A stretch of DNA of 64,000 nt, from NCBI RefSeq assembly GCF_002223055.1, contig NZ_NKFL01000007.1:310001-374000 (forward strand), written 5' to 3'. The translations under genes and the position numbers were made by a program. The notes under the pieces are model-generated. The model had not been told where the DNA came from, did not search any database, and saw only the letters and a program-made list of their open reading frames with translations. This document shows, piece after piece, positions 6,216 to 48,229 of the stretch; position 1 is the first letter of the stretch; each line of letters opens with the position of its first letter. Origin of the DNA: Burkholderia sp. HI2500. GTDB taxonomy: Bacteria; Pseudomonadota; Gammaproteobacteria; Burkholderiales; Burkholderiaceae.

Positions 6216-6228
6216 CGAGAGGTATGCC

Positions 6229-32026: not shown

Positions 32027-32037
32027 CGTCGCCCCCT

Positions 32038-32952: not shown

Positions 32953-32976
32953 GACGCGATACGTTCCGACGAGAGA

Positions 32977-33171
32977 CTAGAAATAGAGGATCAGCGTGGC
33001 GACCAGCACGAGCGAAATCGCGAACTCGAACAGCGCCGGATGCCACACGCGGCGCAGCACGCCGAGCCGGGCGAGCAGCGCGCGCACGGCCATGTAGAGC
33101 GGCACGGTCGCGCACGCATAGACGAAAAAGGGCGGCAGGTAGATGCCGGCCAGCGGGAATTCACTGAGCAT
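32977..33171 (-). CDS. DUF1656 small membrane protein (AaeX-like)
   Basis: A 64-aa protein with two hydrophobic helices, YLPPFFVYACATVPLYMAV and ALFEFAISLVLVATLIL, the typical DUF1656/AaeX pattern. These peptides accompany AaeA/AaeB-type pumps, but their role is not established. It overlaps the end of the FUSC gene by 11 bp, implying coupled translation, and is followed after 24 bp by the adaptor gene. Confidence 0.9.
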   Translation of the reverse strand: MLSEFPLAGIYLPPFFVYACATVPLYMAVRALLARLGVLRRVWHPALFEFAISLVLVATLILYF

Positions 33172-35263
33172 CGCGGGTGCGCTCCGGAACGGCGGTGAAA
33201 TAGGCGGCGTACGTGTGCAGCAGCACGTGGACGTCGGCGAACGCGGCCATCAGCCACTTCAGTTCGGTGTTGCCCGGCTGCGCGGCGGCGAGGCCGGCGA
33301 GCGCGTGCGCGGCGCGCCGCGCATGCCGGGCCGCACGAGCCGGGGCGGCCGCGTGCCGCGCGAGGCCGGCGAGCCCGGCGCGCACGCGGCGCCGCGCGAT
33401 GTCGGGCAGGCCGTCACGCTCGGCGCCGCGACGAATTCGCAGCAACTCCTTGCCGACGTGCAGCGCCGCGAGCGCTTCGATGCTCGCCTGCGTCATCGCG
33501 GCCGGCTGGCCGGCGAGCAGCGCGCCGAGCTGCGCGATGCGGTGCTGCTGGCGCTGCTGCCAGGCCGCCGCCACGACGCGCTTCCCCGCCACGACTGCGA
33601 GCGTGTCGTCGCGGATCGTGCGGCGCAGCCGCGTGGCGTCGGTGGCCAGGTTGCGCGGCAGGATCAAGCGGAACGTGAGCAGCGTGAGGAAGGTGGCGAG
33701 CACCCACGCGACCGACTGGTTCAGGAACAGCGCGACGTCGGGGCGGAACGGATTGGTCGCGCCGGTCAGCGTGTTGAACGCGACGAGATACGCGAGCCCC
33801 GCGAGCGCGGTCTTCGGCACGCTCGTCGCATAGATGCCGGGCATCCAGAACAGCGCGAGCGCGACGACCAGCAGCGGAAAGCCTTCGATGCGCGGCAGGA
33901 TGCCGAACGCGCACACGAACGCGGCCGGCACGGCCAGCACCGTGCCCTTGATGAACGCCTGCGCGCCGGCGGCCGGGTTGCCGGCGGTCGCGAGCAGCGC
34001 ACAGTACGGCGCGACGACGAGCAGCATCATGTCGCCCTGGTTCCAGCCGGTGACGAGCCAGAACGCACCGGAGATCGCGATCGCGCAGGCCGAGCGCACG
34101 CCGTTGCGCAGGGCCGCCCCCGTGTCGCGGTGAAAGCGCACCCGTGCGGGCCGATAGCCCGGCCGCGGGCGCCGCAATTCGACGAGCCCGTCGAGCGCCG
34201 CGCAATAGTCGTCGATCTGTTCGATCAATCGCTCGCCGGCGATCAATAACGCCGCTTCGTCGCGCGGATCGCCGAGCGCGATACCGTCGAGCGCCACACG
34301 CAGGCTTTCGCGCGCATCGACCAGCCGCGCAAGCGCGTGCGCCGCGCCGCCGGGGCCTTCACCCAACGCGTCGGCGGCGGCCTGCCACGCGGCCGCGAGA
34401 CGCGGCTGCAGCGACGCGACCGCTTGCGCGCCGGGGCTGTCGGCCGGCAGCGGCGGTGTGCCGCCCACGAGCGCGCCGAACAGCGACGCCATCCCGTGCC
34501 GCACGGCGGCCGCGCGCTGCGCGAGATCTTCCGATTCGGCCTTGCCGAGCGCGAGCAGATCGTCGATGCCGTAGATGCCGGCGAACAGCGCGTGCCGCTT
34601 GTCGTCGGCGGGCGCCGCCGCGAGGCCGTTGCGCTGCGCGGCGATAACCCGCGCGACGTCGGCCGTGACGCGTGTCACCAGCGCTTCGAGTTTTGCGTGG
34701 ACATCGCGCGTGCCGAGCTGCATCGACACGAGGCTCAGGCACAGCACGCCGATCGCGACCGTCGAGCCGCGCCCGATCACGTGCTCGAAGGTCAGCTCGG
34801 GATGCTGCATCGCGCCGTAGGTCGCGAGGCCGATCGTGTAGCCGGCCACCACGGTGCCCGACGCGCGGAAGTGCCGCAGCAGCGTCATGCCGGCGACGCA
34901 GACGCCGAGCCAGAACGCGAAGCCGAGAATGAACAGCAGCGGCTGCTGCGCGAAGCAGCCCATCAGCACGAACGCGACGACCATCCCCGCGATCGTGCCG
35001 ACCACGCGCCACACGCCCTTGCCGATCACCGCGCCCTGCACGGGATTGATCACGAGCAGCACCGTCGATGCCGCCGAGTACGGCGTTTCCAGTTCGAGCA
35101 GGTACGCGACGCCGAGCGCGAGCGCGGCGGCGACGACCGAGCGCGCGACATACGCACCGCGTGGCGTGAAGATGTCGATGCGCGCGATCAGCGCCGCGGC
35201 CGCGCGATTCAGGCGGCGGGGCGGCGCCGCGACGGCGCGCGTCTGATCGGCTGCGTCATGCAC
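33161..35263 (-). CDS. FUSC-family inner-membrane efflux protein (AaeB/fusaric acid resistance type)
   Basis: A 700-aa transporter with two blocks of five to six TM helices (about residues 30-190 and 385-545) separated and followed by cytosolic helical domains, the FUSC layout. Landmarks are TPYSAASTVLLVINPVQGAVIGKG, conserved in the family, and PYCALLATAGNPAAGAQAF in the second block. Homologues export aromatic carboxylic acids (p-hydroxybenzoate, fusaric acid). It is the first structural gene, 100 bp downstream of a LysR gene on the same strand. A palindrome at 35335-35349 may control it. Confidence 0.92.
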   Translation of the reverse strand: MHDAADQTRAVAAPPRRLNRAAAALIARIDIFTPRGAYVARSVVAAALALGVAYLLELETPYSAASTVLLVINPVQGAVIGKGVWRVVGTIAGMVVAFVLMGCFAQQPLLFILGFAFWLGVCVAGMTLLRHFRASGTVVAGYTIGLATYGAMQHPELTFEHVIGRGSTVAIGVLCLSLVSMQLGTRDVHAKLEALVTRVTADVARVIAAQRNGLAAAPADDKRHALFAGIYGIDDLLALGKAESEDLAQRAAAVRHGMASLFGALVGGTPPLPADSPGAQAVASLQPRLAAAWQAAADALGEGPGGAAHALARLVDARESLRVALDGIALGDPRDEAALLIAGERLIEQIDDYCAALDGLVELRRPRPGYRPARVRFHRDTGAALRNGVRSACAIAISGAFWLVTGWNQGDMMLLVVAPYCALLATAGNPAAGAQAFIKGTVLAVPAAFVCAFGILPRIEGFPLLVVALALFWMPGIYATSVPKTALAGLAYLVAFNTLTGATNPFRPDVALFLNQSVAWVLATFLTLLTFRLILPRNLATDATRLRRTIRDDTLAVVAGKRVVAAAWQQRQQHRIAQLGALLAGQPAAMTQASIEALAALHVGKELLRIRRGAERDGLPDIARRRVRAGLAGLARHAAAPARAARHARRAAHALAGLAAAQPGNTELKWLMAAFADVHVLLHTYAAYFTAVPERTRDAQ

Positions 35264-35334
35264 TGCGCTTGCTCCATGAGAAAGGACGCAGCCAGTCTAC
35301 GGTCGAGCGATGCATGCGGAACAGTGACGTCTTT

Positions 35335-35349
35335 GCACTCGACGAGTGC
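35335..35349. promoter_or_regulatory. Palindrome upstream of the FUSC operon
   Basis: GCACTC-GAC-GAGTGC, perfect 6-bp arms with a 3-bp spacer, 72 bp before the FUSC start in the gap after the LysR gene. A second palindrome GACGCATGCGTC (35354-35365) overlaps the LysR stop. Size and position suit a LysR-type activator site; unproven. Confidence 0.4.
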
Positions 35350-35363
35350 GTACGACGCATGCG

Positions 35364-36287
35364 TCATGCGTGCGCCGGATGCAGCGCCGGCTGGCCGGTA
35401 CACAGCCCGCGCACGACACGCCGCAGCCACTGGTGCGCGGGGTCGCTCTGGAAGCGCGGATGCCACGCCTGCGTGATCAGCACGGTTTCGAGCGGCACCG
35501 GCAGCTCGAACGCGCGCACGCCGAGCCCGGCCCGCACCGCGCCGCGCGCGAGATGCTCGGGCAGCGGCAGGATCAGGTCCGATGCCTGCAGCGCGAAGAT
35601 CGCCGCATACGGCGTCGGCACGACGAGCAGCACCTGCCGCGCGAGGCCGCGCGCGGCGAGCGCGTCGTCGATCGGCCCCGCCGACTTGCCGCGCCGCGAC
35701 ACGCCGATGTGCGGCCAGCGCGCGAAGCGCTCGGGCGTGATGTCGTCGTCGAAGATCGGGTGGTCGTCGCGCGCGAGGCCGACGAAGGTCGTCGTGAACA
35801 GCGGCTGGACGCGAATCTCCGGCCCGAGGCGGCGCGACGCGCTGATGAACAGGTCGATGCGGCCGCTGCGCAACGCGTCGTCGTCGATGTCGTCTTCCTC
35901 GGGCATGAAGCGCAGCATCGCGCGCGGCATCCCGCGCGCCATCTCCTCGAGCAGGCGGCTGCTGTGCAGGCCGACGAAGATGTCGTTCGCGCGCACGTTG
36001 AACTGCTTGTCGAGCGTGCCGAGATCGATTTCCGCGGACGGGGCGAGCAACTGCGACGCGCGCTCCACGGTTTCGCGGACGGCGCCGCGCAGTTCGAGCG
36101 CGCGCGGCGTCGGCACCATCTTGCGGCCGGCCTGCACGAAGATCGGGTCGCCGACCGTTTCGCGGATGCGCGCGAGCGTGCGGCTCATCGCGGGCGGGCT
36201 CAGGTTCATGCGGCGTGCGGCGCCGACGACGCTACCCTCTTCGAGCAGCGCGTCGAGTGAAATCAGCAGGTTCAGGTCGGGTGCCAT
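35364..36287 (-). CDS. LysR-family transcriptional regulator
   Basis: A 307-aa LTTR. The N-terminal HTH LISLDALLEEGSVVGAARRMNLSPPAMSRTLARIRE is typical (only part of the domain). The effector domain follows with RIDLFISASRR and a conserved SRRGKSAGPIDDAL stretch, and it is closest to the NodD/PcpR-like branch. The ATG at 36287 follows GGAGAAG; a start at 36368 is less likely. It lies upstream of and co-directional with the FUSC operon, so it is the likely local regulator, perhaps sensing an aromatic acid. Confidence 0.92.
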   Translation of the reverse strand: MAPDLNLLISLDALLEEGSVVGAARRMNLSPPAMSRTLARIRETVGDPIFVQAGRKMVPTPRALELRGAVRETVERASQLLAPSAEIDLGTLDKQFNVRANDIFVGLHSSRLLEEMARGMPRAMLRFMPEEDDIDDDALRSGRIDLFISASRRLGPEIRVQPLFTTTFVGLARDDHPIFDDDITPERFARWPHIGVSRRGKSAGPIDDALAARGLARQVLLVVPTPYAAIFALQASDLILPLPEHLARGAVRAGLGVRAFELPVPLETVLITQAWHPRFQSDPAHQWLRRVVRGLCTGQPALHPAHA

Positions 36288-36409
36288 CGGCTTCTCCGTG
36301 TCATCGCGTGCATGCGGCGCAATGGTAGTGCGGGATACGCGCGCGCAGCGTGACTGCAGCGCACGCAACGATTGCGCGCGGCATCACGCGTGACGCACGC
36401 ATCGGGGTG

Positions 36410-36937
36410 TCATTGGCCGGCGCCGGCATCGGGCGGCAGCGAGCGGACGGCGGCGAATGCGCCGTTCACGTACATCAGCGGGTTCACGTCGTCGGACATC
36501 GCGACGCGCGTGACCCGTCCGACCAGGATCGAATGCGAACCCACCTCGACCTGTTCGAGCGTGTCGCAGAAGAACGACGTCTGCGCGTTCTCGAGGTAGG
36601 GCAGGCCGGTCGCCGCGTCGGTGCGCCATGCGTCGTGCGCGAAGCGCGTGTCGGAGCCCGTCGTGCTGCACGCGAGCGCGAGCGGCACGTGGCAACTGCG
36701 CAGCGCGTTCACGCAGAAGCGCCGGCGGCCGGTGATCGACGCGTGAATGCTGGCGCGCCGGTTGATGCACACCAGCACGGTCGGCGGATCGAGCGCGACG
36801 GAGGTGAACGAGCTGGCGGTCAGCGCACACGGGGCGGCCGTTTCGCCGTCGCCACCGGTCGTGACGATCGTGACGGTGGCGGCCACGCCGCGCATCGCCT
36901 GTTTCAGTTGCTGCGCAATGTCCACGGTGTTCGTCAT
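36410..36937 (-). CDS. Flavin reductase-like protein (HpaC family)
   Basis: A 175-aa flavin:NAD(P)H oxidoreductase of the short-chain flavin-reductase family that feeds reduced FMN/FAD to two-component monooxygenases. Motifs are GVAATVTIVTTGG, APCALTASSFTSVALDPPTVLVCI (part of the FMN pocket) and the C-terminal HSILVGRVTRV. The start at 36937 begins MTNTVDIAQ. It lies 64 bp after the FAD monooxygenase gene on the same strand and close to an LLM-type monooxygenase that needs reduced flavin, so it is probably the latter's partner. Confidence 0.9.
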   Translation of the reverse strand: MTNTVDIAQQLKQAMRGVAATVTIVTTGGDGETAAPCALTASSFTSVALDPPTVLVCINRRASIHASITGRRRFCVNALRSCHVPLALACSTTGSDTRFAHDAWRTDAATGLPYLENAQTSFFCDTLEQVEVGSHSILVGRVTRVAMSDDVNPLMYVNGAFAAVRSLPPDAGAGQ

Positions 36938-37001
36938 GATGCGGTCCTGTCACGAGGAGCCCCGGTGCCGCGGGTCGTACCACGCGGCGCCGGGGCGGGC
37001 G

Positions 37002-38264
37002 TCAAAGCTGATACGCGTCGGCCCAGGTCCAGTGGTAGGACTTGAAGTCGGCGCGGCGCGACTTGAGCTCGGCGTCGCGCGCCTGTTGCTCGGGGCCGTC
37101 GGGCAGGTGGAACACGCCGCCGTTGCCGGCCGACGCGAGCTGGATCCGCGCGCTGCGGTCGATCCGCAAGCGCTGGTACTCGACCAGCGCGGCGCCGAGG
37201 GCGTCCTTCGACGCGAGCCCGGTCACGCACCGGCCGAGCACGACCGCGTCCTCGAGCGCCTGCGCGGCGCCCTGCGACTGGTACGGCAGCATCGGATGGC
37301 ACGCGTCGCCGAGCAGGCATACGCTGTCCCACACCCAGCGCGTGAGCGGCTGGCGGTCGTGCAGCGACCAGCGGCTCAGGTCCGACGCGCAGCGGATCAG
37401 CCCGACGAGGCGCGGGTCCCAGCCATCGAGCTCGGCCTCGAGCGTCGCGCGGTCGCCCTTGCTGCTCCACGATTCGCGCGTGCTGCCGTCGCCCGGCACG
37501 ATCACGACGAGGTTCAGCAGCCGGCGCTCGCGCACCCAGTAATGGATCGCGTGCCGGCCGGGCCCGAGCCAGATCGTCACCTGCGGCTCCTTGACGATCT
37601 CGAACACGGGCGAGTGCGGATCGATCGCGTCGACGTCGATCAGCGCGCGATACGCGTCGTCGCCGCTGTAGTGCGGCGCATCGTCGCCGAGCAGCGCGTG
37701 GCGCAGCGTCGAGTGAATGCCGTCGGCCGCGACGACGAGATCCGCGCGCCAGCGCGTGCCCGCCGCGTCGACGACGGTCGCGCCGTCCGGCCCGCACGCG
37801 TCGAGCCCGCGCACCGCGATGCCGCCGAGCACGGCGACGGGCGGGCCGGCCGTGTCCGGGTCGCGTACGGCGTCGAGCAGCGCGGCATGCAGGTCGGCGC
37901 GATGCGCGTTCCAGTACGGCGCGTTGAAGGCGGCCTCGACGTCGTCGCCGAGCGGGAAGGAACCGAGCAGGCTGCCGTCCTGCCAGCGGCGGCGGATCGT
38001 CGCGGTCGGGGCGACGGCGGCCAGCCGCTGCCGGTCGAGCACGCCGAGCGCACGCAGCGCGCGCGTGGCGTTCGGCACGACCTGCAGCCCCGCGCCGACT
38101 TCCCGGAACGCCCGGCTTTGCTCGAGGACGGTGACGCGATGGCCGGCGCGGCGCAGCGCGAGCGCGGCGGCCAGGCCGCCGATGCCGGCGCCGACGACGA
38201 TCGTGTCGAGTGACAGGGACGGTGTCATGGGCGAGTCCGCCGTGGGTCCGGAAGAGATCGGCAT
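37002..38264 (-). CDS. FAD-dependent aromatic monooxygenase (salicylate / 6-hydroxynicotinate hydroxylase type)
   Basis: A 420-aa class A flavoprotein hydroxylase. It has the Rossmann motif GAGIGGLAAALALRRAG near the N-terminus, the DG motif VVAADGIHSTLR near residue 180, and the GD motif GDACHPMLPYQSQGAAQALEDA (key residues G-D-x-x-H-P). This group hydroxylates aromatic acids, often with ipso attack and decarboxylation. Starts at 38264 or 38228 are both possible; neither has a strong ribosome site. It follows the LLM gene by 4 bp and lies opposite the aldolase/DHQS genes, which points to a tailoring role in the same pathway. Confidence 0.9.
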   Translation of the reverse strand: MPISSGPTADSPMTPSLSLDTIVVGAGIGGLAAALALRRAGHRVTVLEQSRAFREVGAGLQVVPNATRALRALGVLDRQRLAAVAPTATIRRRWQDGSLLGSFPLGDDVEAAFNAPYWNAHRADLHAALLDAVRDPDTAGPPVAVLGGIAVRGLDACGPDGATVVDAAGTRWRADLVVAADGIHSTLRHALLGDDAPHYSGDDAYRALIDVDAIDPHSPVFEIVKEPQVTIWLGPGRHAIHYWVRERRLLNLVVIVPGDGSTRESWSSKGDRATLEAELDGWDPRLVGLIRCASDLSRWSLHDRQPLTRWVWDSVCLLGDACHPMLPYQSQGAAQALEDAVVLGRCVTGLASKDALGAALVEYQRLRIDRSARIQLASAGNGGVFHLPDGPEQQARDAELKSRRADFKSYHWTWADAYQL

Positions 38265-38268
38265 GGCG

Positions 38269-39327
38269 TCATAGCCCCGGCAGCACGTCGCGGGCGAACA
38301 CTTCCAGGTTGTTGCTCATCAGCTCGTACGGCTGCGCGCCGTAGTCGATGTGCCACAGGATCGCGTCGAGCCCGAGGTCGGCTTCCAGCGCGCGAATGCG
38401 CTGGCGCACGGTGTCGGGCGTGCCGAGCACGGCGGTCGCGTCGAGGTCGGCCGTGTCCATGCCGCCCATCTTGTTCTTCATCGCCTCGTTGTAGCCCTGG
38501 TACGCCGACGACTGCACCTGCTCCCACGACTTCGCGGCGTCCGCGAAATAGCGCCAGTGATGGCGCAGGCGCGGCTCCGCGAGCGCCAGCGCGTGCGCGT
38601 CCGACGTGCCGATCATCAGCGGGATGCTGATCGCGACCTGCGGCCGGCGGCCGGTGTGGCCGTGATGGCGCTCGAACGTCTCGCGATAGAGGGCCACCAT
38701 GTCCTGCGTCTTCGCGAGCGCGTCCTTGCGCGGCGGCGCGGCCATCAGCAGATTGAAGCCGCGTTCGCCGATCCACTCGAAGCTGGACGGCGTGAGCAGC
38801 GCCGCGACCCAGACCGGCGGACGCGGCTGCTGCGTCGGGCGCGGCAGCGATTGCGCGTTGCGGTAGCGGAAGAACGGCGTGTCCTCGCTGACCGATTCCT
38901 CGGCGAGCAGGCGTACCGTCGCGTCGATCGTCTGCTGGAAGCGCGCCTTGCTCGAATCGAGATCGATGCCGAACGCCTCGAATTCGTACGGCAGGAACGC
39001 GCGCGCGAAGCCGAGCTCGAGCCGCCCGTTCGAGATCGCGTCGAGCTGCGCGGCCTCGGCCGCGAGCTGGATCGGATGATGGAACGACGCCTGGATGCCC
39101 CCCGTCATCAGGCGGATCGACTTCGTCTGCGCGGCCGCGGCCGCGAGGAACATCAGCGGCGACGGGCTGTAGCCGCCATACGGCTTCAGGTAGTGCTCGG
39201 TCATCTTCACGTACGTGTAGCCGAGCCGGTCCCCCAGCGCGCTGAGCTTCAGCGCGTTCGCGTAGTAATCGGCCGCCGGGCGGTCGGCCGGGCCGGTATC
39301 GGGCAAAAAGGACACGCCGAACTTCAT
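38269..39327 (-). CDS. LLM-class flavin-dependent monooxygenase
   Basis: A 352-aa luciferase-like TIM-barrel monooxygenase that uses reduced FMN supplied by a partner reductase. Features are MKFGVSFLPDTG, YVKMTEHYLKPYGGYSPSP, the RLELGFARAFLPYEFEAFG loop and GTPDTVRQRI near the C-terminus. The ATG at 39327 follows GAGGT; an upstream in-frame start is rejected because it crosses the divergent promoter. It is the first gene of the minus-strand arm (LLM, FAD hydroxylase, flavin reductase). Substrate unknown; N-oxidation, Baeyer-Villiger oxidation or ring hydroxylation are all seen in this class. Confidence 0.9.
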   Translation of the reverse strand: MKFGVSFLPDTGPADRPAADYYANALKLSALGDRLGYTYVKMTEHYLKPYGGYSPSPLMFLAAAAAQTKSIRLMTGGIQASFHHPIQLAAEAAQLDAISNGRLELGFARAFLPYEFEAFGIDLDSSKARFQQTIDATVRLLAEESVSEDTPFFRYRNAQSLPRPTQQPRPPVWVAALLTPSSFEWIGERGFNLLMAAPPRKDALAKTQDMVALYRETFERHHGHTGRRPQVAISIPLMIGTSDAHALALAEPRLRHHWRYFADAAKSWEQVQSSAYQGYNEAMKNKMGGMDTADLDATAVLGTPDTVRQRIRALEADLGLDAILWHIDYGAQPYELMSNNLEVFARDVLPGL

Positions 39328-39600
39328 AGACACCTCACAGGTTGATGTGCTGCCGTTGTCTGCAAAGGGGAACCGATGCCGCGTCGAATGCGTCCCCCGG
39401 TCGGGAAACAGGATCGCTCGCAATGTACTTGCAAGGATGATCCAATCATAGGATGATTGGGTCTATGCAAGTCTTACACGACGCAAGATTTGCTGCAAGC
39501 GTTGCTCGGTTGTTGCTCCAGTTCCGCCCGCAAGCGGGCACTCCGGGGGCAGGCTGAAGTCGCACGGGCCGGCCTCTCCATTTCTGGCGAGGAATCAAGG
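39328..39600. promoter_or_regulatory. Divergent promoter of the putative biosynthetic cluster, with nested inverted repeats
   Basis: Contains CCAATCAT-AGG-ATGATTGG (39442-39460), perfect 8-bp arms. A wider pair ACTTGCA (39427-39433) / TGCAAGT (39466-39472) surrounds it, and the heptamer GGATGAT occurs as a direct repeat at 39435 and 39451. The same heptamer, as ATCATCC, occurs at 44539-44545 upstream of the GntR gene. This fits a FadR-type GntR operator controlling both arms. Confidence 0.6.
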
Positions 39601-40401
39601 ATGGACGCTCTTCTATCGGTTTCTGGCAAGGCGCTCAGGATGCGGCGGGTGGTGCGTGCCGCGTCGGGCAAGTGTCTGATGGTGCCGCTCGACCATTCGC
39701 TCGCGGACGGGCCCATCGCCCCTCCGCAGCAGTTGCGGCAACTGGTGGGCGACATTGCCGCGCACGGCGGCGACGCGATCGTCGTGCATCGCGGCCGCGC
39801 ACGCTTCCTGTCTCCCGACGTGCTGAGCGATCTCGCGCTCGTCGTGCACCTGAACGGCTGCACGCGCTACGCGGAGGACGCGAACGCGAAGACGCTGTTC
39901 GCGAGCGTCGAGGATGCACTCGCATGCGGCGCGGACGCGGTCAGCGTGCACGTGAATCTCGGCTCGAAGACGGAGAACCAGCAGCTGCTCGACCTGAGCC
40001 GCATCGCGACCGAGTGCGCGCGCTGGTCGTTGCCGCTGCTCGCGATGATCTATCCGCGCGGCCCGGGCCTCGGCGATCGTCCGCAGACCGAACTGATTGC
40101 CCACGCGGCGAACGTCGCGGCGGATCTCGGCGCCGACATCGTCAAGCTGCCGTACAGCGGCGACGCCGCGAGCATGGCCGACATCATCGCCGGCTCGTCG
40201 CTGCCGGTGCTGGTCGCGGGCGGCGCGAAGCTGCCGGAAGACGAGTTCGTCGCGTTCACGTCGCGCGTGATGAACGCGGGTGCGCTCGGCATCGCGGCCG
40301 GTCGCAACGTGTTCGCCGCGCCGAAGGCCGCCCCGCTGATCCGCCGCCTGTCCGATGCCGTGCACGGTGTCGAGCGGCGTGCCGCGCACCTGGCCGCCTG
40401 A
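39601..40401 (+). CDS. ADH-synthase/GriI-like class I aldolase
   Basis: A 266-aa DeoC/LacD-type TIM-barrel aldolase resembling archaeal 2-amino-3,7-dideoxy-D-threo-hept-6-ulosonate synthase and actinobacterial GriI. Catalytic residues are in place: D31 (VPLDHSLADGP), Y151 (AMIYPRGPG) and the Schiff-base K182 (DIVKLPYSGD), each two positions from D33, Y153 and K184 of M. jannaschii MJ0400 as I recall it. GriI condenses aspartate semialdehyde with DHAP to a C7 amino sugar acid phosphate. The ATG at 39601 follows GAGGAATCAAGG. It starts the plus-strand arm with two DHQS-II genes. Confidence 0.88.
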   Translation: MDALLSVSGKALRMRRVVRAASGKCLMVPLDHSLADGPIAPPQQLRQLVGDIAAHGGDAIVVHRGRARFLSPDVLSDLALVVHLNGCTRYAEDANAKTLFASVEDALACGADAVSVHVNLGSKTENQQLLDLSRIATECARWSLPLLAMIYPRGPGLGDRPQTELIAHAANVAADLGADIVKLPYSGDAASMADIIAGSSLPVLVAGGAKLPEDEFVAFTSRVMNAGALGIAAGRNVFAAPKAAPLIRRLSDAVHGVERRAAHLAA

Positions 40402-40453
40402 GCCGGTGCGCCGGGCCGTCGCGCCCGGTTCATTTCGACCGTAGAGGATTTCC

Positions 40454-41518
40454 ATGCATCGCTATCCGTGGATCGACCTGCGCGCGCTCGGCGCGCAGGC
40501 AGGCGCCGTCGCGGCCGACGCAGCGAGGGCCGGCGCGTGCCGTTTCGTGGTGGCCGAAGCCGAGCGCGACACGTGCGCGCCTGGCGCGGCGGCGCAACTG
40601 TCCGTATCGACGCCGGGCGTCGCAACGCTGGTCGACGACGTGCATGCGCCGCTCGCAGGCGTTCGCGTGAGGATCGACGGCGCGGCCGATTTCGGTGCCG
40701 TGCGCACCGCGATCGCGCGGCACGCGCTCGTCCTGATCGACTACGCGCTCGTGACCACGGTGCCGCTCGAGCGCCTGCTCGCGGGTGTCCGCGAGGCCGC
40801 GTGCCGCATCGTCGTGTCGCTGGCCGATCCGCACGGCGCGGCCTACCTCGCGCGCAAGCATGCGCAGTCGCCGGTCGACATCGCGTTCGCCCCGCGCGAT
40901 GCGGCCGCGTTGCGTGGCGTGCTGGCCGCATGCGGCGAGCTGCGCGCCCGCGAGCCGCTGAAGCTGAAGATATTCGAGGTGCAGCGCGTCGAGCCGCTCG
41001 GCACCGGGCTGCATGCGGTGATCGACGGCTGTTCGCAGCTGGACGGCGAAGAGTGCGTGCTGGCCGGCGCGAGCGCGACCAGCATGCTGCTCGTCGTCGC
41101 GGCCGGCGCCGCGCACCCGCCGGGCCGGCCGCTCACATTCGGCATCGACGCGGGCTCGGCCGAATCGTTCGTGTTCTGCGGCGGCGACCGCGCGCGCCAG
41201 CTTTCGCTGCTGCGTTCCGGCGAGCGGATCCTGACGGTCGGCGCGGCCGGCGACACGCGCGCGATCGTGGTCGGCCGCGTGCGGATCGAATCCGCGCCGC
41301 TCGTCGCACTGCACACGCGCAGCGCGTCCGGCGCGAACACGCGCGTCGTGATGCGCGGCGACCGCGCAGTACGGTTCCGGACCGACGACGGCGCGCGCGT
41401 CGGTCTCGCCGATGTCGCGCCCGGCGTCCGGCTTGCCGGCTACGAACCGGGCGCCGGCTGGGTGGATTGCCGGATGAGGGCCGCCGCGTCGCGCTCGGTC
41501 GTTTCCGTCAGCCGCTAG
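40454..41518 (+). CDS. 3-dehydroquinate synthase II paralogue, divergent copy
   Basis: A 354-aa protein related to archaeal-type DHQ synthase (PF01959 family). It keeps the N-terminal WIDLRALG strand and the central VEPLGTG turn but has lost conserved blocks found in the next gene. CVDTC is replaced by AVIDGC, GSYS by GASAT, and RPFRVNAG by RPLTFGIDAG (residues from 225). The GVLL strand is also missing. The ATG follows GAGGATTTCC, 52 bp after the aldolase gene. It may be a non-catalytic partner, or an enzyme with changed specificity. Assigned by similarity in order of motifs to its neighbour. Confidence 0.8.
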   Translation: MHRYPWIDLRALGAQAGAVAADAARAGACRFVVAEAERDTCAPGAAAQLSVSTPGVATLVDDVHAPLAGVRVRIDGAADFGAVRTAIARHALVLIDYALVTTVPLERLLAGVREAACRIVVSLADPHGAAYLARKHAQSPVDIAFAPRDAAALRGVLAACGELRAREPLKLKIFEVQRVEPLGTGLHAVIDGCSQLDGEECVLAGASATSMLLVVAAGAAHPPGRPLTFGIDAGSAESFVFCGGDRARQLSLLRSGERILTVGAAGDTRAIVVGRVRIESAPLVALHTRSASGANTRVVMRGDRAVRFRTDDGARVGLADVAPGVRLAGYEPGAGWVDCRMRAAASRSVVSVSR

Positions 41519-41567
41519 TTTCATCCTGTCACTCAACCTGCGTTATCCCCTTCGAAGGAGATTGGCC

Positions 41568-42668
41568 TTGAAGAAGCTTTCCTGGATTGACCTGCGCAAC
41601 ATCGGCGAGCTCGCGGACGAGATCACCGAGGAAGCGCTGCATGTCGGCGTGTCCGCATTCGTCGTGAAGGATGCGGCGCAGGCCGGGCGGCTGCCGCCGA
41701 GCGCGTGCAAGGTCGCGGTCGTCGATCGGCAGACGGCCGATGCCGCGCTGCTCGAGCAGGTGCAGATCATCCTCGTGAAGGATGGCCTGCCGGTCGATTT
41801 CGCGGTGCCGGATGGTGCCGAACTCGGCGTGTTCATCGAGGTGACGGGCGAGGCGACGCTCACGCGCGCCTGCGAGCTGTCGACCACGACGCCGTGGCTG
41901 CTCGTCGAATTCCTGCAGGACCCGAGCAAGATCCCGCTCGAGATCCTGCTGGCCGCTGCCGATCAGGCGTCGGGCGAGCTGATCACGGTCGTCGCCGACC
42001 TGGAGGATGCGGAGGTCACGCTGAACGTGCTGCAGCGCGGCCCCGAAGGCGTGCTGCTCACGCCGACGCAGGTCGGGCAGGCCACGCAGCTCGTGTCGAT
42101 CTGCAGCGACACGGTCGAGGATCTGCAGCTCGAGGAAATCGAGATCGTCGGGCTCACGCACCTCGGGCCGGGCGAACGCGTGTGCGTCGACACCTGCTCG
42201 CGCTTCGAGCAGGACGAGGGCATCCTCGTCGGCTCGTATTCGACCGGCATGATCCTCATCAGCAGCGAGACGCACCCGCTGCCGTACATGCCGACGCGCC
42301 CGTTCCGCGTGAACGCGGCCGCGCTCCATTCGTACGTCGTCGCGCCGGACAACCGCACGCGCTATCTCGCCGAGCTCGAATCGGGCGCGGAGATCCTCGC
42401 CGTCAACGTGCAGGGCAAGGCGCGCCGCGTCGTGGTCGGGCGCGCGAAGGTCGAGACGCGGCCGCTGCTGCTGATCGAGGCGAAGAATGCCGCCAATCGC
42501 GCGATCAACATCATCGCGCAGGACGACTGGCACGTGCGCGTGCTCGGGCCGAAAGGCAGCGTGCACAACATCACGGAGCTCAAGCGCGGCGACCGCATCC
42601 TCGGCTACACGCTCGATGCGCAGCGCCACGTCGGCTACCCGATCCGGGAATTCCTGCACGAGCAGTGA
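41568..42668 (+). CDS. 3-dehydroquinate synthase II / GriH-like enzyme
   Basis: A 366-aa DHQ-synthase-II. Motifs shared with M. jannaschii MJ1249 are GPEGVLLTPTQ, THLGPGERVCVDTC (C206-C210), GILVGSYSTG, RPFRVNAA (from R244) and the C-terminal VGRAKVETRPLLLIEA. The archaeal enzyme oxidises and deaminates the aldolase product to DHQ; GriH instead cyclises it to 3-amino-4-hydroxybenzoate. There is no ATG: the TTG at 41568 is placed 7 bp after GAAGGAG, better than an in-frame TTG two codons upstream. Next to the aldolase, it should catalyse ring closure. Confidence 0.9.
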   Translation: MKKLSWIDLRNIGELADEITEEALHVGVSAFVVKDAAQAGRLPPSACKVAVVDRQTADAALLEQVQIILVKDGLPVDFAVPDGAELGVFIEVTGEATLTRACELSTTTPWLLVEFLQDPSKIPLEILLAAADQASGELITVVADLEDAEVTLNVLQRGPEGVLLTPTQVGQATQLVSICSDTVEDLQLEEIEIVGLTHLGPGERVCVDTCSRFEQDEGILVGSYSTGMILISSETHPLPYMPTRPFRVNAAALHSYVVAPDNRTRYLAELESGAEILAVNVQGKARRVVVGRAKVETRPLLLIEAKNAANRAINIIAQDDWHVRVLGPKGSVHNITELKRGDRILGYTLDAQRHVGYPIREFLHEQ

Positions 42669-42745
42669 TCCGCATGCTTCATTGACGATGCGATCGCCCG
42701 GTGCGTCACGTGCCGGCGCGGTCGGCTCATGTTCAGGAGTACTTT

Positions 42746-43768
42746 ATGGAAAATGCGGCAAAACAGGTGCTGGATACGCTGTTCGGACGGTGGCGCAGCC
42801 GGATCCTGTATGCGGGCACGCGGCTCGGCGTGTTTGATGCGGTCACGACGGATGCGCCGGTGTCGTCGGCCGCGCTCGCGGCGAAGCTCGATGTCGACGA
42901 GCCGCTGCTGTACCGGCTGCTGCGCGCGCTCGCGTCGCTCGGCCTGCTCGACGAGGATACGCGCCGCGGCTTCCGGGCCACCGCGTCGGGGGCGCTGCTG
43001 CATGCGGACGCCCCGAGCACGCTGCGTGATTTCGTGCTGCTGCAGGAAGGGCCGGAGCATTACGCGATCTGGGCGCATCTGCCCGACATGGTGCGCGAGG
43101 GGCAGCAGAACGGTTTCGTCCGCGAGTTCGGCGCGATGGCGTTCGACTATGCGAAGGACCACGACCGCTACCGGACCGATTTCAAGCGCGCGATGTCGAG
43201 CTTCTCGACCGTGCAGTCGGAGCAGGTGGTCGACGCGCTGCGCGACGTCACGTTCGCGCCGGGCACGCATGCGTGCGACATCGGCGGCGGCCAGGGGCAC
43301 ATGCTGTGCAGCCTGCTGCGGCGATTCCCGTCGCTGACCGGCGTCGTGTTCGACCTGCCCGAAGTGATCGACGGTGATGCGGACGACTGGGCGCAGCGCA
43401 TGGGTGTGAGCGCACGCTGCAGCAAGGCGGGCGGCAACATGTTCGACGCGGTGCCGGTGGCCGACGTCTACCTGCTGAAGCTGATCCTGCACGACTGGAA
43501 CGACGACGAGTGCGTGGCGATCCTCAAGCGGGCACGCGAAAGCGCCCGGGACGGCGCACGCGTGTTCGTGATCGAACGGGTCGTGCCGGCGCCGGGCGTC
43601 GCGCATTTCTCGAAGCTCTACGACATCCACATGATGTGCTGGGGCAGCGGCCGCGAGCGCACGCGGGACGAATACGACGCGCTGCTCGGCGCCGCCGGCT
43701 GGCGGCCCGCCGGAGTCCGCTCCGCGCCGGACGGGCAGATCGACGTGATCGAGGCCGTCGCGGCGTAG
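42746..43768 (+). CDS. SAM-dependent O-methyltransferase (hydroxyindole/COMT-like)
   Basis: A 340-aa small-molecule O-methyltransferase. An N-terminal winged-helix dimerisation domain (LYRLLRALASLGLLDE) precedes the SAM-binding loop ACDIGGGQGHML and the catalytic region LKLILHDWNDDECVAIL with the general-base His of the HDW motif. The family methylates phenolic hydroxyls in natural products. The ATG at 42746 follows CAGGAG; an upstream start at 42701 is rejected. It is the last gene of the plus-strand arm, 77 bp after the DHQS-II gene, so a phenolic product of the pathway is the likely substrate. Confidence 0.92.
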   Translation: MENAAKQVLDTLFGRWRSRILYAGTRLGVFDAVTTDAPVSSAALAAKLDVDEPLLYRLLRALASLGLLDEDTRRGFRATASGALLHADAPSTLRDFVLLQEGPEHYAIWAHLPDMVREGQQNGFVREFGAMAFDYAKDHDRYRTDFKRAMSSFSTVQSEQVVDALRDVTFAPGTHACDIGGGQGHMLCSLLRRFPSLTGVVFDLPEVIDGDADDWAQRMGVSARCSKAGGNMFDAVPVADVYLLKLILHDWNDDECVAILKRARESARDGARVFVIERVVPAPGVAHFSKLYDIHMMCWGSGRERTRDEYDALLGAAGWRPAGVRSAPDGQIDVIEAVAA

Positions 43769-43792
43769 CGCACGCTGGGTGCGACGGGCGCG

Positions 43793-44500
43793 TCAGGCGG
43801 CGGGCGTCTCGCGGGTTTCGAGCCAGGTCATTTGCGGCTTGAGGATCGCGAGCGTCGCGCGAACCGCCTTGTTCTCGTCGCGCTGTTCGATCGCGTCGAG
43901 CACCGCCTGGTGCGCCCGCATGTCCGGCTCGGGAATCTCGGCCTCGTCGAGTTCGACGAGGATGTCCTCGACGTTCGCGAGGATCGAGCCCGAGAAGTAG
44001 CGATACAGCGCTTCGAGCGCGTGATTGTGCGATGCGGCGGCCACGGCGATGTGAAACGCGCGGTCGCGCTCGACGAACTTCTTCACGTCGCGCGACGCTT
44101 CGCGCTCGCCTCGCGCCTTCAGCAGCTTGCGCAGCGTCGCGAGATCCTCGTCCGTGCGCCGGCGCGCCGCGTAGCGCGCGCATTCCGTTTCGAGCATGCA
44201 CTGCAGCTCGAGATGGTCGCTGCGCGCGGCGCGATCGACGTCGCGCATCGTCTCGGCCGGATCGACATTGCGGCGCACGTAGGTGCCGTCACCCTGGCGC
44301 ACTTCGAGCACGCCGGAATACGCCAGCGTGCGAACCGCCTCGCGCACCGTGTTGCGCCCGACCTCGAGCTGTTTCGCGAGATCGAGCTCGGTCGGAATGC
44401 GCTGACCGACGCGCCAGATGCCGGAAGTGATATTGGATTTGAGGATATCGATCGCCGAATCGACGAGCGAGTGTCGGGTGGCCGGGGGCAGGCTTGACAT
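43793..44500 (-). CDS. GntR-family regulator, FadR subfamily
   Basis: A 235-aa repressor. The winged HTH (RIPTELDLAKQLEVGRNTVREAVRTLAYSGVLEVRQGDGTYV; only part of the domain) is followed by an all-helical FCD ligand-binding domain with metal-binding type residues (ERDRAFHIAVAAASHNHAL, MRAHQAVLDAI). It is convergent with the methyltransferase gene. Its own upstream region shares the heptamer ATCATCC with the cluster promoter, so it is the probable pathway regulator. FCD domains bind small organic acids, which would fit sensing of a pathway intermediate. Confidence 0.93.
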   Translation of the reverse strand: MSSLPPATRHSLVDSAIDILKSNITSGIWRVGQRIPTELDLAKQLEVGRNTVREAVRTLAYSGVLEVRQGDGTYVRRNVDPAETMRDVDRAARSDHLELQCMLETECARYAARRRTDEDLATLRKLLKARGEREASRDVKKFVERDRAFHIAVAAASHNHALEALYRYFSGSILANVEDILVELDEAEIPEPDMRAHQAVLDAIEQRDENKAVRATLAILKPQMTWLETRETPAA

Positions 44501-44802
44501 TGCGTGTTTCGCTTGAAGCTTGAGGGTGTCGCTATCCTATCATCCGATCAATCGTTTAGTCGTTCAGGATAACGATATTCAAACGTGACATTTTGTTAAC
44601 GTCAGACGAATAAACCTGCGGCCGTCAGTTGCGTGCCGCGCATTCGTTGATTGCTTCCGCCGGCATTTACCGGCGCTGCGTCGGCGTAAATGATTCCCAT
44701 TCGCTGTTCAGTCGAGGTCGCCGTTGCACGAGCGGCCCGTCTTCCGACTCGAGGGCGCGGCATATCCGCCGACGTCCGTCTCCGCTTTCCGGATAACCCG
44801 AG
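44501..44802. promoter_or_regulatory. Divergent region between GntR gene and TonB receptor, with weak Fur-like site
   Basis: No gene. It is AT-rich around 44530-44610. GATAACGATATTC (44568-44580) matches 11 of 13 positions of the first part of a Fur box, but the rest matches poorly, so iron control is only a possibility. ATCATCC at 44539-44545 matches the cluster operator half-site. Confidence 0.4.
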
Positions 44803-47049
44803 ATGAATCGATCACACACCGGCCGCCGTGCGCGGCCAGGATTTCCGTTGCCGCGCGCGGCGTGGCGGCGCGTACCGGGCTGGGCGGCCGCACTGGCCTG
44901 TGCGACCGCGATGCCGGTTGTTGCTTCGGCGCAGGATGCGCGGGAGGCGGGCGAACCCGCGGCGGATGCCTCGTTGCTCGCGCCGATCGTCGTTGACGGG
45001 CGACGCGAGACAGGTGTCGGCCCCGTGCAAGGCATCGCGGCCGACGTGTCGCGCGCGGGCACCAAGACCGACACGGCGATCGTCGAGGTGCCGCAGGGCC
45101 TGTCGGTCGTCACGCGCGAACAGATGGACCGGCAGGACGTGCACAGCGTCGGCGACAGCCTGCGCTATACGCCGGGCGCCTACGCGGATTCACGCCCCGG
45201 CGGTGTGCTCGAGAGCGTGTTCCTGCGCGGCTTCGGCGGCTTCGCGGCGGCGGCGATCAATCCGCAGATGCTCGACGGCCTGCCGCTGCCGAAAGGCGTG
45301 AACTGGGCCGCGAGCGTCGTCGATCCGTGGACGCTCGAACGCATCGACGTGCTGCGCGGCCCGGCGTCGGTGCTGTACGGGCAGGCGAGCCCGGGCGGCA
45401 TCGTCGACATGGTCAGCAAGCGGCCCACGCGCGATGCGCAGCACCTGCTCGCCGTGCAGACCGGCAACCGCGATCGCGGGCAGCTTGCATTCGACTTCAG
45501 CGGGCCCGTGACGAAAGATGGAACATGGCGCTACCGGATCGACGGCCTCGCGCGCCGCGCCGACGAGCAGATCGATTATTCTCGGCAGCAGCGGATCGTC
45601 GTCGCGCCGTCGCTGATGTGGCAGCCGAACGCCGATACGCGTTTCACGCTGCTGGGGTCGTTCCAGCGCGATCCGCACAACAACTTCGCGGGCTGGCTGC
45701 CGGCAGTCGGTACGCTTTGGCCGGATTCGGGACGGCGGATTCCGACGCACTTCTTTCCGGGGCTGCCGGGGTTCGATACGTACGACCGCACGCAGGCGAT
45801 GATCGGCTATGCGTTCGAGCATCGTTTCAATTCGACGTGGAAGGTTCGGCAGAACGTGCGCTATACGCATCTCGATGTCGACTTCGCGGGCGCGGCGGTC
45901 AATTTCATCGCGCCGTATCTGGCGCCGGGCGTGCTGAACCGTTCGCTGTCGTGGTCGCGCGAGCACGTGAACCATCTCGCGCTCGACAACCAGGCCGAGA
46001 TGCGCGTGATGACGGGGCCGGTCGAGCATACGGTGCTGGCCGGGCTGTCGTATGAGCATGCGGTGGCGAATCTCGTCGGCTCGGGCTTCGGTGCGGCGCC
46101 GCCGCTCGATACGCGGGCGCCCGATTACGGGCAGCCGTATGCGGTGCCGCCGGTCGCGCAGCAGACGCGCCAGACGCCTGACCGGATCGGCGTCTATCTG
46201 CAGGATCAGGTGCGTTGGGATCGGTGGGTGTTCACGCTCGGCGGGCGCGAGGAGTGGTCACGCACGACCACCGATGACATGCTGCGGTCCGCGAGCGTGC
46301 GGCAGAGTACGCGGGCGTTCACGGGGCGTGCTGGGGCGGTCTATCTGTTCGATAGCGGTTTTGCGCCGTACATGAGCTATTCGACTTCATTCGAGCCGGC
46401 GCTCGGCACGCGTTTCGATGGTCAGCCGTTCACGCCGACGAAGGCGAAGCAGTTCGAGGTCGGGTTGCGTTATCAGTCGCCGGACCGGCTGCAGAACGCG
46501 TCGATCGCGGCGTTCGATATTCGCCAGCGCAATGTCCTGACCGCCGATCCGGAGCATCCGTTCTTCAGCGTGCAGACGGGGGAAGTGCGATCGCGCGGGA
46601 TCGAGCTGGAAGGGCGGGCGCGTGTGTGGAAGCAACTGGATGTAATTGCTGCGTACACCTATCTTGATACGACGGTGCAGGCCGATACGGATTCGACCGT
46701 GGTCGGCAAGCGCGTGGCGGCGGTGCCGCGCCATCTCGCGTCGCTTTGGCTGGACTATGCGGTTGAGCGGCCGGGGTTGCGCGGGTTGAGGGTCGGTGGT
46801 GGTGTGCGTTATGTGGGGCGCAGCGCGGGTGACAACGTCAATACGTTCGATGTGCCGGCTGTCGTGCTTTTTGATCTCGGGCTGTCGTATGACCTTGGAG
46901 TCGAACGGTCCGCGTGGAAGGGATGGCGCGTTGCGGCGCATGTGAACAACCTGTTCGACCGGACTTATGTGTCGTCGTGCTTTTCAGCGGGTGGGTGTTT
47001 CTATGGCACGCGGTTGATGGTGACGGGGGATGTTAGTTATCGGTGGTGA
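44803..47049 (+). CDS. TonB-dependent siderophore receptor
   Basis: A 748-aa outer-membrane receptor. The signal peptide ends near VVASAQD. A plug domain (VPQGLSVVTREQMDRQDVHSV, LRGFGGFAAAAINPQMLDG, RIDVLRGPASVLYGQASPGG) precedes a 22-strand barrel ending in the aromatic terminal residue (SYRW). The C-terminal VNNLFDRTYVSSCFSAGGCFYGTR is typical of ferrichrome/ferric-siderophore receptors (FhuA/FpvA type). It imports a ferric chelate using TonB energy. Next to the biosynthetic cluster it could take up the cluster's product, but co-regulation is unproven. The start has only a weak ribosome site (CGAG). Confidence 0.95.
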   Translation: MNRSHTGRRARPGFPLPRAAWRRVPGWAAALACATAMPVVASAQDAREAGEPAADASLLAPIVVDGRRETGVGPVQGIAADVSRAGTKTDTAIVEVPQGLSVVTREQMDRQDVHSVGDSLRYTPGAYADSRPGGVLESVFLRGFGGFAAAAINPQMLDGLPLPKGVNWAASVVDPWTLERIDVLRGPASVLYGQASPGGIVDMVSKRPTRDAQHLLAVQTGNRDRGQLAFDFSGPVTKDGTWRYRIDGLARRADEQIDYSRQQRIVVAPSLMWQPNADTRFTLLGSFQRDPHNNFAGWLPAVGTLWPDSGRRIPTHFFPGLPGFDTYDRTQAMIGYAFEHRFNSTWKVRQNVRYTHLDVDFAGAAVNFIAPYLAPGVLNRSLSWSREHVNHLALDNQAEMRVMTGPVEHTVLAGLSYEHAVANLVGSGFGAAPPLDTRAPDYGQPYAVPPVAQQTRQTPDRIGVYLQDQVRWDRWVFTLGGREEWSRTTTDDMLRSASVRQSTRAFTGRAGAVYLFDSGFAPYMSYSTSFEPALGTRFDGQPFTPTKAKQFEVGLRYQSPDRLQNASIAAFDIRQRNVLTADPEHPFFSVQTGEVRSRGIELEGRARVWKQLDVIAAYTYLDTTVQADTDSTVVGKRVAAVPRHLASLWLDYAVERPGLRGLRVGGGVRYVGRSAGDNVNTFDVPAVVLFDLGLSYDLGVERSAWKGWRVAAHVNNLFDRTYVSSCFSAGGCFYGTRLMVTGDVSYRW

Positions 47050-47199
47050 TCGGACGGTGGGTGGGGGTGTTGCGATGCTGGTGCGGGCTGTGCACGTGCG
47101 ACTGGCCCGGCCGTGCCGCCGCCCGGATACACTGACGCCTTCGCCGTAGGCATCGCGGCTGCGTAGGCCGTCGGCTGCGGATTCGTGGAGAGATCACCC

Positions 47200-48114
47200 A
47201 TGAGCATCGTCGTTCGTCGAAACCGGATCGCCATCTGCTTGTGCCGGGTGCTCATCTCGGGCGCGTTGATCGCTTCCGTCGTCGGCTGTGCGGCGACGGC
47301 GGTCGACGACACGTCCATCGCGCCGGATCTGCATGAAACCATCGTCAAGGTCCCGGTCGATGAGGGGGCGAGCACGCGCGACATCGTCGCCACCACCTAC
47401 ATGCCGGATGGCCCCGGACCCTTTCCGTTGATCGTGCTGAGCCACGGCAGCCCGCCCGATCCGCGCGACCGGCCGAAGGTGCGCCGCTATCGCGCGTTGC
47501 CGCAGATCCGGACGTTCGTGAAGCTCGGCTTCGCGGTCATCGTGCCGATCCGCCGCGGGTACGGAGCGACGGGCGGGGTCGATGAAGAGGATGCGGGTTC
47601 GTGCCGGCATCCGGATTACCTTGCTGCGGGGCAGCAGGCCGCGCGCGATGTGCTCGCGGCCGTGCGGTATGCGCAGACGTTGCCGCAAGTGGATCGAAAC
47701 CGCGTTGTATTGGTCGGGCAATCGGCGGGTGGTTTTGCGTCGCTGGCGGCGGCGAGCTACGCGCCGCAGGGGGTGGTTGCGGTGGTGAACTTTTCTGGTG
47801 GGCGTGGGGGGAACCCGACGACTCATCCCGGCATGCCGTGCGATCCGAAGCAGATGGCCGACACGATCGGGCATTTCGCGAGCACGACACAGGTGCCGGT
47901 GCTGTGGCATTACGTGCAGAACGACAAGTATTTCGCGCCGGAGGTGGTGGCGACGTGGTTTGCCGCGTTTCAGGGGGCGGGTGGGCGCGGGCAGATGATT
48001 GTTGAACCGCCGTTTGGCAAGAACGGGCACGGGATGTTTGCGGTTAAGGAGGCGATTCCGATTTGGTTGCCGCACTTTGAGGCGTTTGTGGGGCCGTTGG
48101 TGGCGGTGAAGTAG
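47200..48114 (+). CDS. Alpha/beta-hydrolase lipoprotein (dienelactone-hydrolase-like)
   Basis: A 304-aa hydrolase with a lipoprotein signal (LISGALIASVVGCAAT, Cys about 30). Core motifs are PLIVLSHGSPP (oxyanion region), the nucleophile elbow GQSAGG, and a late NGHGMF His. It probably cleaves an ester or peptide at the cell envelope; the target is unknown. The ATG at 47200 follows GAGAGATCACCC; a GTG five codons upstream is an alternative. It follows the TonB receptor by 150 bp on the same strand, and siderophore-hydrolase roles are conceivable but not shown. Confidence 0.85.
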   Translation: MSIVVRRNRIAICLCRVLISGALIASVVGCAATAVDDTSIAPDLHETIVKVPVDEGASTRDIVATTYMPDGPGPFPLIVLSHGSPPDPRDRPKVRRYRALPQIRTFVKLGFAVIVPIRRGYGATGGVDEEDAGSCRHPDYLAAGQQAARDVLAAVRYAQTLPQVDRNRVVLVGQSAGGFASLAAASYAPQGVVAVVNFSGGRGGNPTTHPGMPCDPKQMADTIGHFASTTQVPVLWHYVQNDKYFAPEVVATWFAAFQGAGGRGQMIVEPPFGKNGHGMFAVKEAIPIWLPHFEAFVGPLVAVK

Positions 48115-48229
48115 GGGGGCGGCCGCTGCCCGAAGCCGTCATTCGTGGACAGACTACGGCAGCGCTTCACGCTAGCCATCGTTTAGCATGCTCCAAAAAA
48201 CATAATGTGATGGGTCATATTCACTAGCG

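Follow-up and report, generated by a model that had tools for sequence, protein, structure and literature searches.

A conserved Burkholderia gene cluster with a putative 3-amino-4-hydroxybenzoate-forming enzyme pair and a degenerate DHQS-II paralogue

The stretch of DNA analysed here, called the window, comprises 64,000 nucleotides of Burkholderia sp. HI2500 (G000:C7:310001-374000, in a genome of 8.26 Mb on 27 contigs). Our results indicate that it harbours a conserved, lineage-restricted gene cluster whose chemistry is of a known kind but whose gene complement is new. An aldolase, two proteins of the type II 3-dehydroquinate synthase family (DHQS-II; named here DHQa and DHQb) and an O-methyltransferase are encoded divergently from a luciferase-like monooxygenase (LLM), a flavin adenine dinucleotide (FAD) hydroxylase and a flavin reductase. 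The gene content, its conservation, the co-inheritance of the genes and the loss from DHQa of residues that are invariant in its family were all observed. On a modest balance of probability, we favour a dedicated small-molecule pathway that would proceed through 3-amino-4-hydroxybenzoate (3,4-AHBA), decarboxylation, oxygenation by the LLM and O-methylation, with DHQa as a pseudoenzyme, control by a GntR-type regulator and a TonB-dependent receptor in the unit; the reactions are predicted, the operator is a candidate and the receptor ligand is presumed. The features of the unit are as follows.

36410..36937, minus strand: flavin reductase (PF01613) by profile match; in 10/10 carriers of the cluster, with a partial remnant in B. 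stagnalis YJ-2
37002..38264, minus strand: class A FAD hydroxylase; best solved match 8x38 (decarboxylative vanillate 1-hydroxylase), 300 bits; in 10/10 carriers
38269..39327, minus strand: LLM; best solved match RslO1 (7bip), 230 bits
39443..39459, no strand: perfect 17-bp palindrome CAATCATNNNATGATTG in the divergent promoter, a candidate operator; identical in the ten carriers
39601..40401, plus strand: aldolase of the ADH-synthase/GriI type, with D31, Y151 and K182
40454..41518, plus strand: DHQa, a degenerate DHQS-II paralogue and probable pseudoenzyme, judged by family scores, loss of invariant residues and the ratio of nonsynonymous to synonymous substitution rates (dN/dS)
41562..42668, plus strand: DHQb, a DHQS-II/3,4-AHBA-synthase-like enzyme by profile scores; TTG start
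42746..43768, plus strand: class I O-methyltransferase (Methyltransf_2 plus dimerisation domain) by profile match
43793..44500, minus strand: GntR/FCD (FadR-type) regulator by profile match; co-distributed with the cluster
44803..47049, plus strand: siderophore receptor of the FoxA/FhuA type, TonB-dependent; shares the distribution of the cluster but is broken in the carrier G010

A first-pass annotation of the window had named eight genes, from the flavin reductase to the GntR regulator, together with their families. All eight are present and form one block, but the co-inherited unit extends to the TonB receptor at 44803-47049, which that annotation had omitted. ATG codons stand at the starts of the LLM (39327), the aldolase (39601) and the methyltransferase (42746) in 10/10 carriers, and no internal stop was found in the eight genes across the nine other carrier loci; the start of the FAD hydroxylase is unconfirmed in G059. 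Scans of the window with Rfam and for tRNAs gave no matches.

In genome sets built with one genome per species, a protein search with DHQa as query found DHQS-II in 14 of 65 Burkholderia genomes. Ten of these 14, the window's own included, have a DHQa orthologue of at least 67% identity, and the other four have a distant DHQS-II only. Order and orientation are the same in all ten carriers, compared as nine loci plus the window (L018, L019 and L020 duplicate G049, G019 and G027, respectively, and each genome was counted once): flavin reductase, FAD hydroxylase, LLM, aldolase, DHQa, DHQb, methyltransferase, GntR and TonB. The carriers include Burkholderia lata R-18110, Burkholderia sp. D-99 and Burkholderia paludis MSh1. 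Further names come from protein matches: B. stabilis, B. stagnalis and B. ubonensis among those of DHQa, B. cepacia among those of DHQb. DHQS-II is rare at wider scale, being found in 2/398 genomes of the phylum sample and 6/369 of the class sample (own genome counted in both), and the 398-genome family sample holds no DHQa orthologue beyond those carriers, only distant DHQS-II. The protein searches scored only the 7997 to 8000 candidates sharing most words, so absence outside Burkholderia is provisional. On one contig, G008:C3, the cluster occurs at both ends with equal identities (L022 and L023), and this contig is probably an unclosed circular replicon. A different adjacent pair, with an aldolase of about 33% and a DHQS-II of about 42% identity to those of the window, occurs in four other loci (L028-L031, in G052, G061, G053 and G006), where no matches to other window genes were found in the 20 kb stretches compared.

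Two genomes, G001 and G057 (the latter 82% complete), bear scars of the cluster. In each, a short remnant lies between the LysR side and the GntR gene. Both retain the window stretch 39308-39547, which covers the divergent promoter and the LLM start, at 74-76% identity, as well as the window from 43704 onward, with the end of the methyltransferase and the GntR gene; the remainder of both arms is gone. Because the alignment ends at 39308, 39547 and 43704 are identical between the two genomes, a single ancestral loss is suggested. A 24 kb stretch of B. stagnalis YJ-2 (L048) matches in FUSC, LysR and part of the flavin reductase only (residues 25-171, L048 11700-14000). Two other proteins named for B. 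stagnalis match DHQa, unlike the YJ-2 stretch, and the cluster was probably lost within this species. The scars and the YJ-2 remnant together indicate that both arms tend toward joint loss. Linkage of the two arms, on which the first-pass annotation had staked its view of a single set, is conserved in the other strains (10/10 carriers linked, and both arms absent around shared breakpoints in G001 and G057), and that view stands.

Both DHQS-II genes that had been reported in the window belong to the family, but only DHQb looks catalytically competent. When 36 DHQS-II proteins other than DHQa were aligned (the DHQb of the window, 33 of its matches drawn from the best 120 of 3075, and two matches from the DHQa search), 79 columns proved invariant. 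Across nine DHQa sequences, 29 of the 79 are kept in all and 40 are absent from all, and 26 of these 40 fall among the 38 invariants that are polar, charged or aromatic; the lost stretches include the SETHPLPYMPTRPFRVNA and QDDWHVR blocks. A second comparison, of ten DHQa with 24 other DHQS-II (10 of them DHQb orthologues), gave 70 invariants, with 29 kept in all DHQa. The median pairwise dN/dS (45 pairs) is 0.50 for DHQa, with a maximum of 0.67, against 0.10 for both DHQb and the aldolase, and the next-highest median among 11 genes is 0.32, for FUSC; the second G008 copy (L023), in which DHQb is in two pieces and runs off the contig end, was excluded, and the TonB value is unreliable owing to pairs with G010. 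Because many invariants are lost and dN/dS is high, yet the reading frame is open in all ten carriers, DHQa is probably a retained pseudoenzyme, and its adjacency and homology to DHQb suggest that the two are partners. The predicted structures had a mean pLDDT of 85.1 and a pTM of 0.61 for DHQb, and 79.3 and 0.68 for DHQa. For DHQb, Foldseek returned partial matches of the barrel type (among the best 50 of 1511, the query TM did not exceed 0.37; 42 had an E of 0.001 or better), and it returned no matches at E 0.001 or better for DHQa, and no inference was drawn from either search.

In actinomycetes, GriI and GriH convert aspartate semialdehyde and dihydroxyacetone phosphate (DHAP) into 3,4-AHBA. 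An alignment to MJ0400 (2qjg) places D31, Y151 and K182 of the window's aldolase, residues that had already been picked out on first inspection, against D33, Y153 and K184, which we take to be catalytic. The aldolase scores above the cut-off of NF005556, the subfamily model for ADH synthase (300 bits, cut-off 241), and DHQb passes the DHQS-II subfamily model NF002625 (570.7 bits, cut-off 375) and is nearer to the 3,4-AHBA synthase model BagC_FevH (379.5 bits) than to the DHQS-II equivalog models (247.6 bits at most). From these similarities, 3,4-AHBA synthesis would be the best fit for the two proteins, in support of the GriI/GriH-like pair proposed earlier. Among the best 120 of 3075 DHQb matches, the closest relatives outside Burkholderia are two at 77%, one of them named Pseudomonas aeruginosa (P0134, 11 member sequences), hinting at a transfer of the pathway between genera; they are followed by one at 73% and then by Streptomyces from 64% downward. 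The 12 protein matches of DHQa comprise eight full-length relatives (65-92%), two partial ones and two distant DHQS-II at 32%, one of which is named Pseudonocardiaceae; seven of the eight full-length relatives carry an organism name, and all seven are Burkholderia. Given that DHQa is confined to Burkholderia among named relatives whereas DHQb has one in P. aeruginosa, the pathway may run without DHQa elsewhere. A sequence search with DHQb met no solved structures for the DHQS-II family.

In the comparison with solved proteins, the FAD hydroxylase gave its highest scores with decarboxylative vanillate 1-hydroxylase (300 bits) and with a protein named 4-hydroxybenzoate decarboxylase (270 bits), followed by an FAD protein (264 bits) and tropone 2-monooxygenase (258 bits). 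Vanillate is 4-hydroxy-3-methoxybenzoate, and 3,4-AHBA is its 3-amino analogue, with NH2 for OMe. Because the hydroxylase is nearest to vanillate 1-hydroxylase and the two compounds differ only by this group, the simplest prediction is a decarboxylating ipso-hydroxylation of 3,4-AHBA to 2-aminohydroquinone. The aminohydroxybenzoate-type end product that had been suggested for the cluster is thus probably not what it makes, since the homology of the hydroxylase points to carboxyl loss. The LLM is nearest to RslO1 (230 bits), which, in the available part of its description, is a proposed epoxide-former working with a flavin reductase, the epoxidation having been inferred from similarity (PMC8093152). 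The flavin reductase of the window probably supplies reduced flavin to the LLM. Relatives of the LLM and of DHQb, both at 77%, occur in records whose longest contig has the same size (48,020 bp), and a further such pair, both named Streptomyces albus subsp. albus, likewise shares a longest contig of 130,088 bp; the equal sizes suggest linkage in both cases. A genome of another family in the same class (G909) has an aldolase (45%) and a DHQS-II (48%) with an FAD hydroxylase of the same family (36%) immediately after them on one strand, a recurrence that favours the proposed pathway, with no match to the window's LLM or methyltransferase in the locus. This set (L068, G909:C11, 3543-12152) is bagremycin/ferroverdin-like and includes a BagC/FevH-like synthase (below cut-off) and a major facilitator superfamily exporter; its ligases scored 447 bits with the BagE/FevW model (cut-off 800) and 399 bits with the 3-aminoavenalumate diazotase model (cut-off 975).

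The intergenic region between the LLM and aldolase genes, 264-276 bp long, contains CAATCATAGGATGATTG, which is identical in the ten carriers and occurs exactly just once across the window. Its core ATCATNNNATNAT has one match per strand, both at this place, with 0.10 expected, and two matches were reached in 2/100 shuffles. The palindrome is kept exactly in the scarred locus L049, and the scarred locus L050 has no exact core match. The GntR gene (E 1e-80 or better) was found in 12/65 genomes, namely the ten carriers and the scarred G001 and G057, and because it is confined to these (2/55 among the others) it belongs to the unit; the palindrome is a candidate for its operator. The TonB receptor, at 80% identity or more, occurs in 11/65 genomes, the ten carriers and the scarred G057, with a 62% relative in G028 and none in the scarred G001 at the threshold used. 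As it is found in 10/10 carriers and 1/55 others, it also belongs to the unit.

Taken together, the favoured pathway would start with the aldolase coupling aspartate semialdehyde to DHAP or a comparable donor, after which DHQb would cyclise the product to 3,4-AHBA, like actinomycete GriI/GriH. The FAD hydroxylase would attack the ring at its carboxylate-bearing carbon, which lies para to the phenol, releasing CO2 and leaving 2-aminohydroquinone. The LLM, fed by the flavin reductase, would add one further oxygen as an epoxide or hydroxyl, and the O-methyltransferase would cap one hydroxyl, these two steps coming in either order. Small amino(methoxy)hydroquinones, quinones or epoxyquinols would be expected as products. 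As a retained pseudoenzyme, DHQa would probably partner or regulate DHQb. Both arms are probably under the control of the GntR/FCD protein, acting at the 39443-39459 palindrome, and the presence of the TonB receptor in the unit suggests metal binding or re-uptake. It is conceivable, though unlikely, that the 3,4-AHBA synthase is an enzyme-pseudoenzyme pair in which DHQa tunes DHQb, and that the product is an aminohydroquinone-derived metallophore, neither peptide nor shikimate in origin, which re-enters the cell through the TonB receptor. The chemistry of 3,4-AHBA is known mainly from actinomycetes, and the papers on such clusters found here concern Streptomyces. A conserved Gram-negative version without an assembly line would be a minimal route to reactive amino-quinones, easily expressed and tested, and DHQa would exemplify a pseudoenzyme kept beside its active relative.

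Other explanations have to be weighed against this pathway. The carboxylate might be kept, if the FAD enzyme or the LLM hydroxylated 3,4-AHBA elsewhere and methylation then gave a methoxylated 3-amino-4-hydroxybenzoate, in the manner of the cremeomycin pathway and its hydroxylation step. PMC11429834 names CreH/CreI together with the methyltransferase CreN for cremeomycin. Hydroxylation without decarboxylation is possible from the best NCBIfam match of the hydroxylase, 3-hydroxybenzoate 6-monooxygenase (285 bits, below the cut-off of 459), but two of its three best solved relatives are named for 4-hydroxybenzoate decarboxylation and neither an AMP-ligase nor a diazotase family came up in profile scans of the eight genes, so that we regard retention of the carboxylate as rather unlikely. 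It is quite unlikely, in turn, that DHQa has been neofunctionalised, with the two DHQS-II proteins acting in sequence or making a different C7N ring. The open frame in 10/10 carriers, the dN/dS below 1, the 29/79 invariants kept in all nine copies and the passing of the curated cut-offs of PF01959 and NF002625 would fit a working enzyme, but the absence of 40/79 invariants, including 26 of the 38 that are polar, charged or aromatic, and the contrast between purely Burkholderia-named full-length relatives and the 77% P. aeruginosa-named relative of DHQb argue otherwise.

An alternative route to dehydroquinate (DHQ) for aromatic amino acids is highly improbable. An aldolase beside a DHQS-II is the archaeal ADH-DHQ pair, but this genome has a canonical aroB (G000:C3:56594-57607, 389.7 bits, cut-off 305), DHQS-II is present in only 14/65 Burkholderia genomes, and the genes are tightly linked to oxygenases and a methyltransferase. 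Since an ordinary aroB is there, the DHQS-II genes are not needed for the shikimate pathway and such a role for the cluster was rejected. The first-pass annotation had argued for specialised metabolism unless aroB proved to be missing, and with aroB found its argument holds.

The decarboxylating pathway with a pseudoenzyme DHQa, which we continue to favour, has several further results weighing against it, besides the NCBIfam match just mentioned. The aldolase scores 245.5 bits with TIGR01949, below the cut-off of 299, and DHQb at 379.5 bits is below the cut-off of 750 for BagC_FevH, a bagremycin/ferroverdin model. DHQa passes its family cut-offs (PF01959, 117.3 against 22.2 bits; NF002625, 391.2 against 375 bits), and its dN/dS below 1 makes some function, even a catalytic one, conceivable. 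The LLM and FAD families are widespread, with plasmid records numbering 1220 and 551, respectively, at identities under 60%, so homology fixes their chemistry only loosely. The palindrome pattern was chosen after inspection, and its longer form, when 3 mismatches are allowed, has 2 matches in the window against 1.03 expected. No clear Fur box was found before the TonB gene, the best, at 12/19, being reached in 27/500 shuffles, and Fur control of this gene thus found no clear support. Finally, the TonB gene of G010 (L025, ~4028-6260) has an in-frame stop or frame break; because the biosynthetic genes of this carrier are open, the receptor may be dispensable.

The unit is flanked by a LysR gene (35364-36290) and by the following set.

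30551-35263, beside LysR: FUSC/HlyD/DUF1656/outer-membrane efflux genes

This set resembles the aromatic acid efflux system AaeXAB. LysR, at 86% identity or more, occurs in 16/65 genomes, the ten carriers and six non-carriers, two of which are the scarred ones; its frame was taken from 36290, a position at which most copies lack a start codon, so that this start is provisional. Among the stretches compared, FUSC adjoins LysR in 5/6 of those from non-carriers (two of the five are truncated by the end of a contig) as well as in that of B. stagnalis YJ-2; the FUSC of G008 is cut by the stretch end. As LysR and the efflux genes also occur without the cluster, they were rejected as members of the unit and are older neighbours.

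Full-text searches, assessed by titles and the starts of abstracts and with subscription journals mostly outside their coverage, found no report of this Burkholderia cluster, which is weak evidence that it is new, and Burkholderia is not mentioned in the main text of PMC10179220 or PMC11429834. For decarboxylative 4-hydroxybenzoate 1-hydroxylases, the literature search gave no structure paper. A DHQS-II gene on a plasmid of Sinorhizobium medicae T10, typed as conjugative (L059), lies beside NRPS (non-ribosomal peptide synthetase), cobalamin-dependent, HpaB-like and SagB-like genes. The layout of the window, with an aldolase-DHQS-II arm divergent from an arm of LLM, FAD oxygenase and flavin reductase, is shared with manumycin-type clusters such as that of asukamycin and that on the Streptomyces NBC_01343 plasmid, which we assign to this type from its gene content. 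The aldolase and DHQS-II of NBC_01343 are 47% and 42% identical to those of the window. Its LLM (29% over 248 residues) and flavin reductase (28%) are more distant, and its FAD enzyme has no match at E 1e-5, which also counts against our proposal. Because the FAD enzyme is unmatched and the LLM reaches only 29% in the one cluster compared, the two systems appear to have a common ring-forming pair and a parallel oxygenation that is not demonstrably homologous. No polyketide or N-acyltransferase genes were found among 13 Pfam-scanned proteins at 33161-49636, and a single NAT gene, identified elsewhere in the genome, is on another contig; a manumycin type was rejected on gene content and on the lack of homology of the oxygenases.

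The FAD hydroxylase, whose solved relatives at ranks 1 and 2 are named for decarboxylation, is nearest to the decarboxylative vanillate 1-hydroxylase and 4-hydroxybenzoate 1-hydroxylase group, but its own predicted substrate has NH2 where vanillate has OMe. RslO1, the nearest solved LLM, belongs with MsnO8 to the epoxide-forming LLM enzymes, and the substrates there are polyketides. The GriI/GriH clusters of actinomycetes, for grixazone, ferroverdin/bagremycin, cremeomycin and ahbamycin, share with the window an adjacent ADH-synthase-type aldolase and DHQS-II. DHQb is up to 64% identical to the Streptomyces proteins among the best 120 of its 3075 matches, and the aldolase is 46-52% identical to four Streptomyces plasmid proteins. 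Unlike those clusters, the Burkholderia block has no ligase, NRPS or polyketide synthase gene and possesses, in addition to the ring-forming pair, a degenerate extra DHQS-II, a FadR-type regulator and a TonB receptor.

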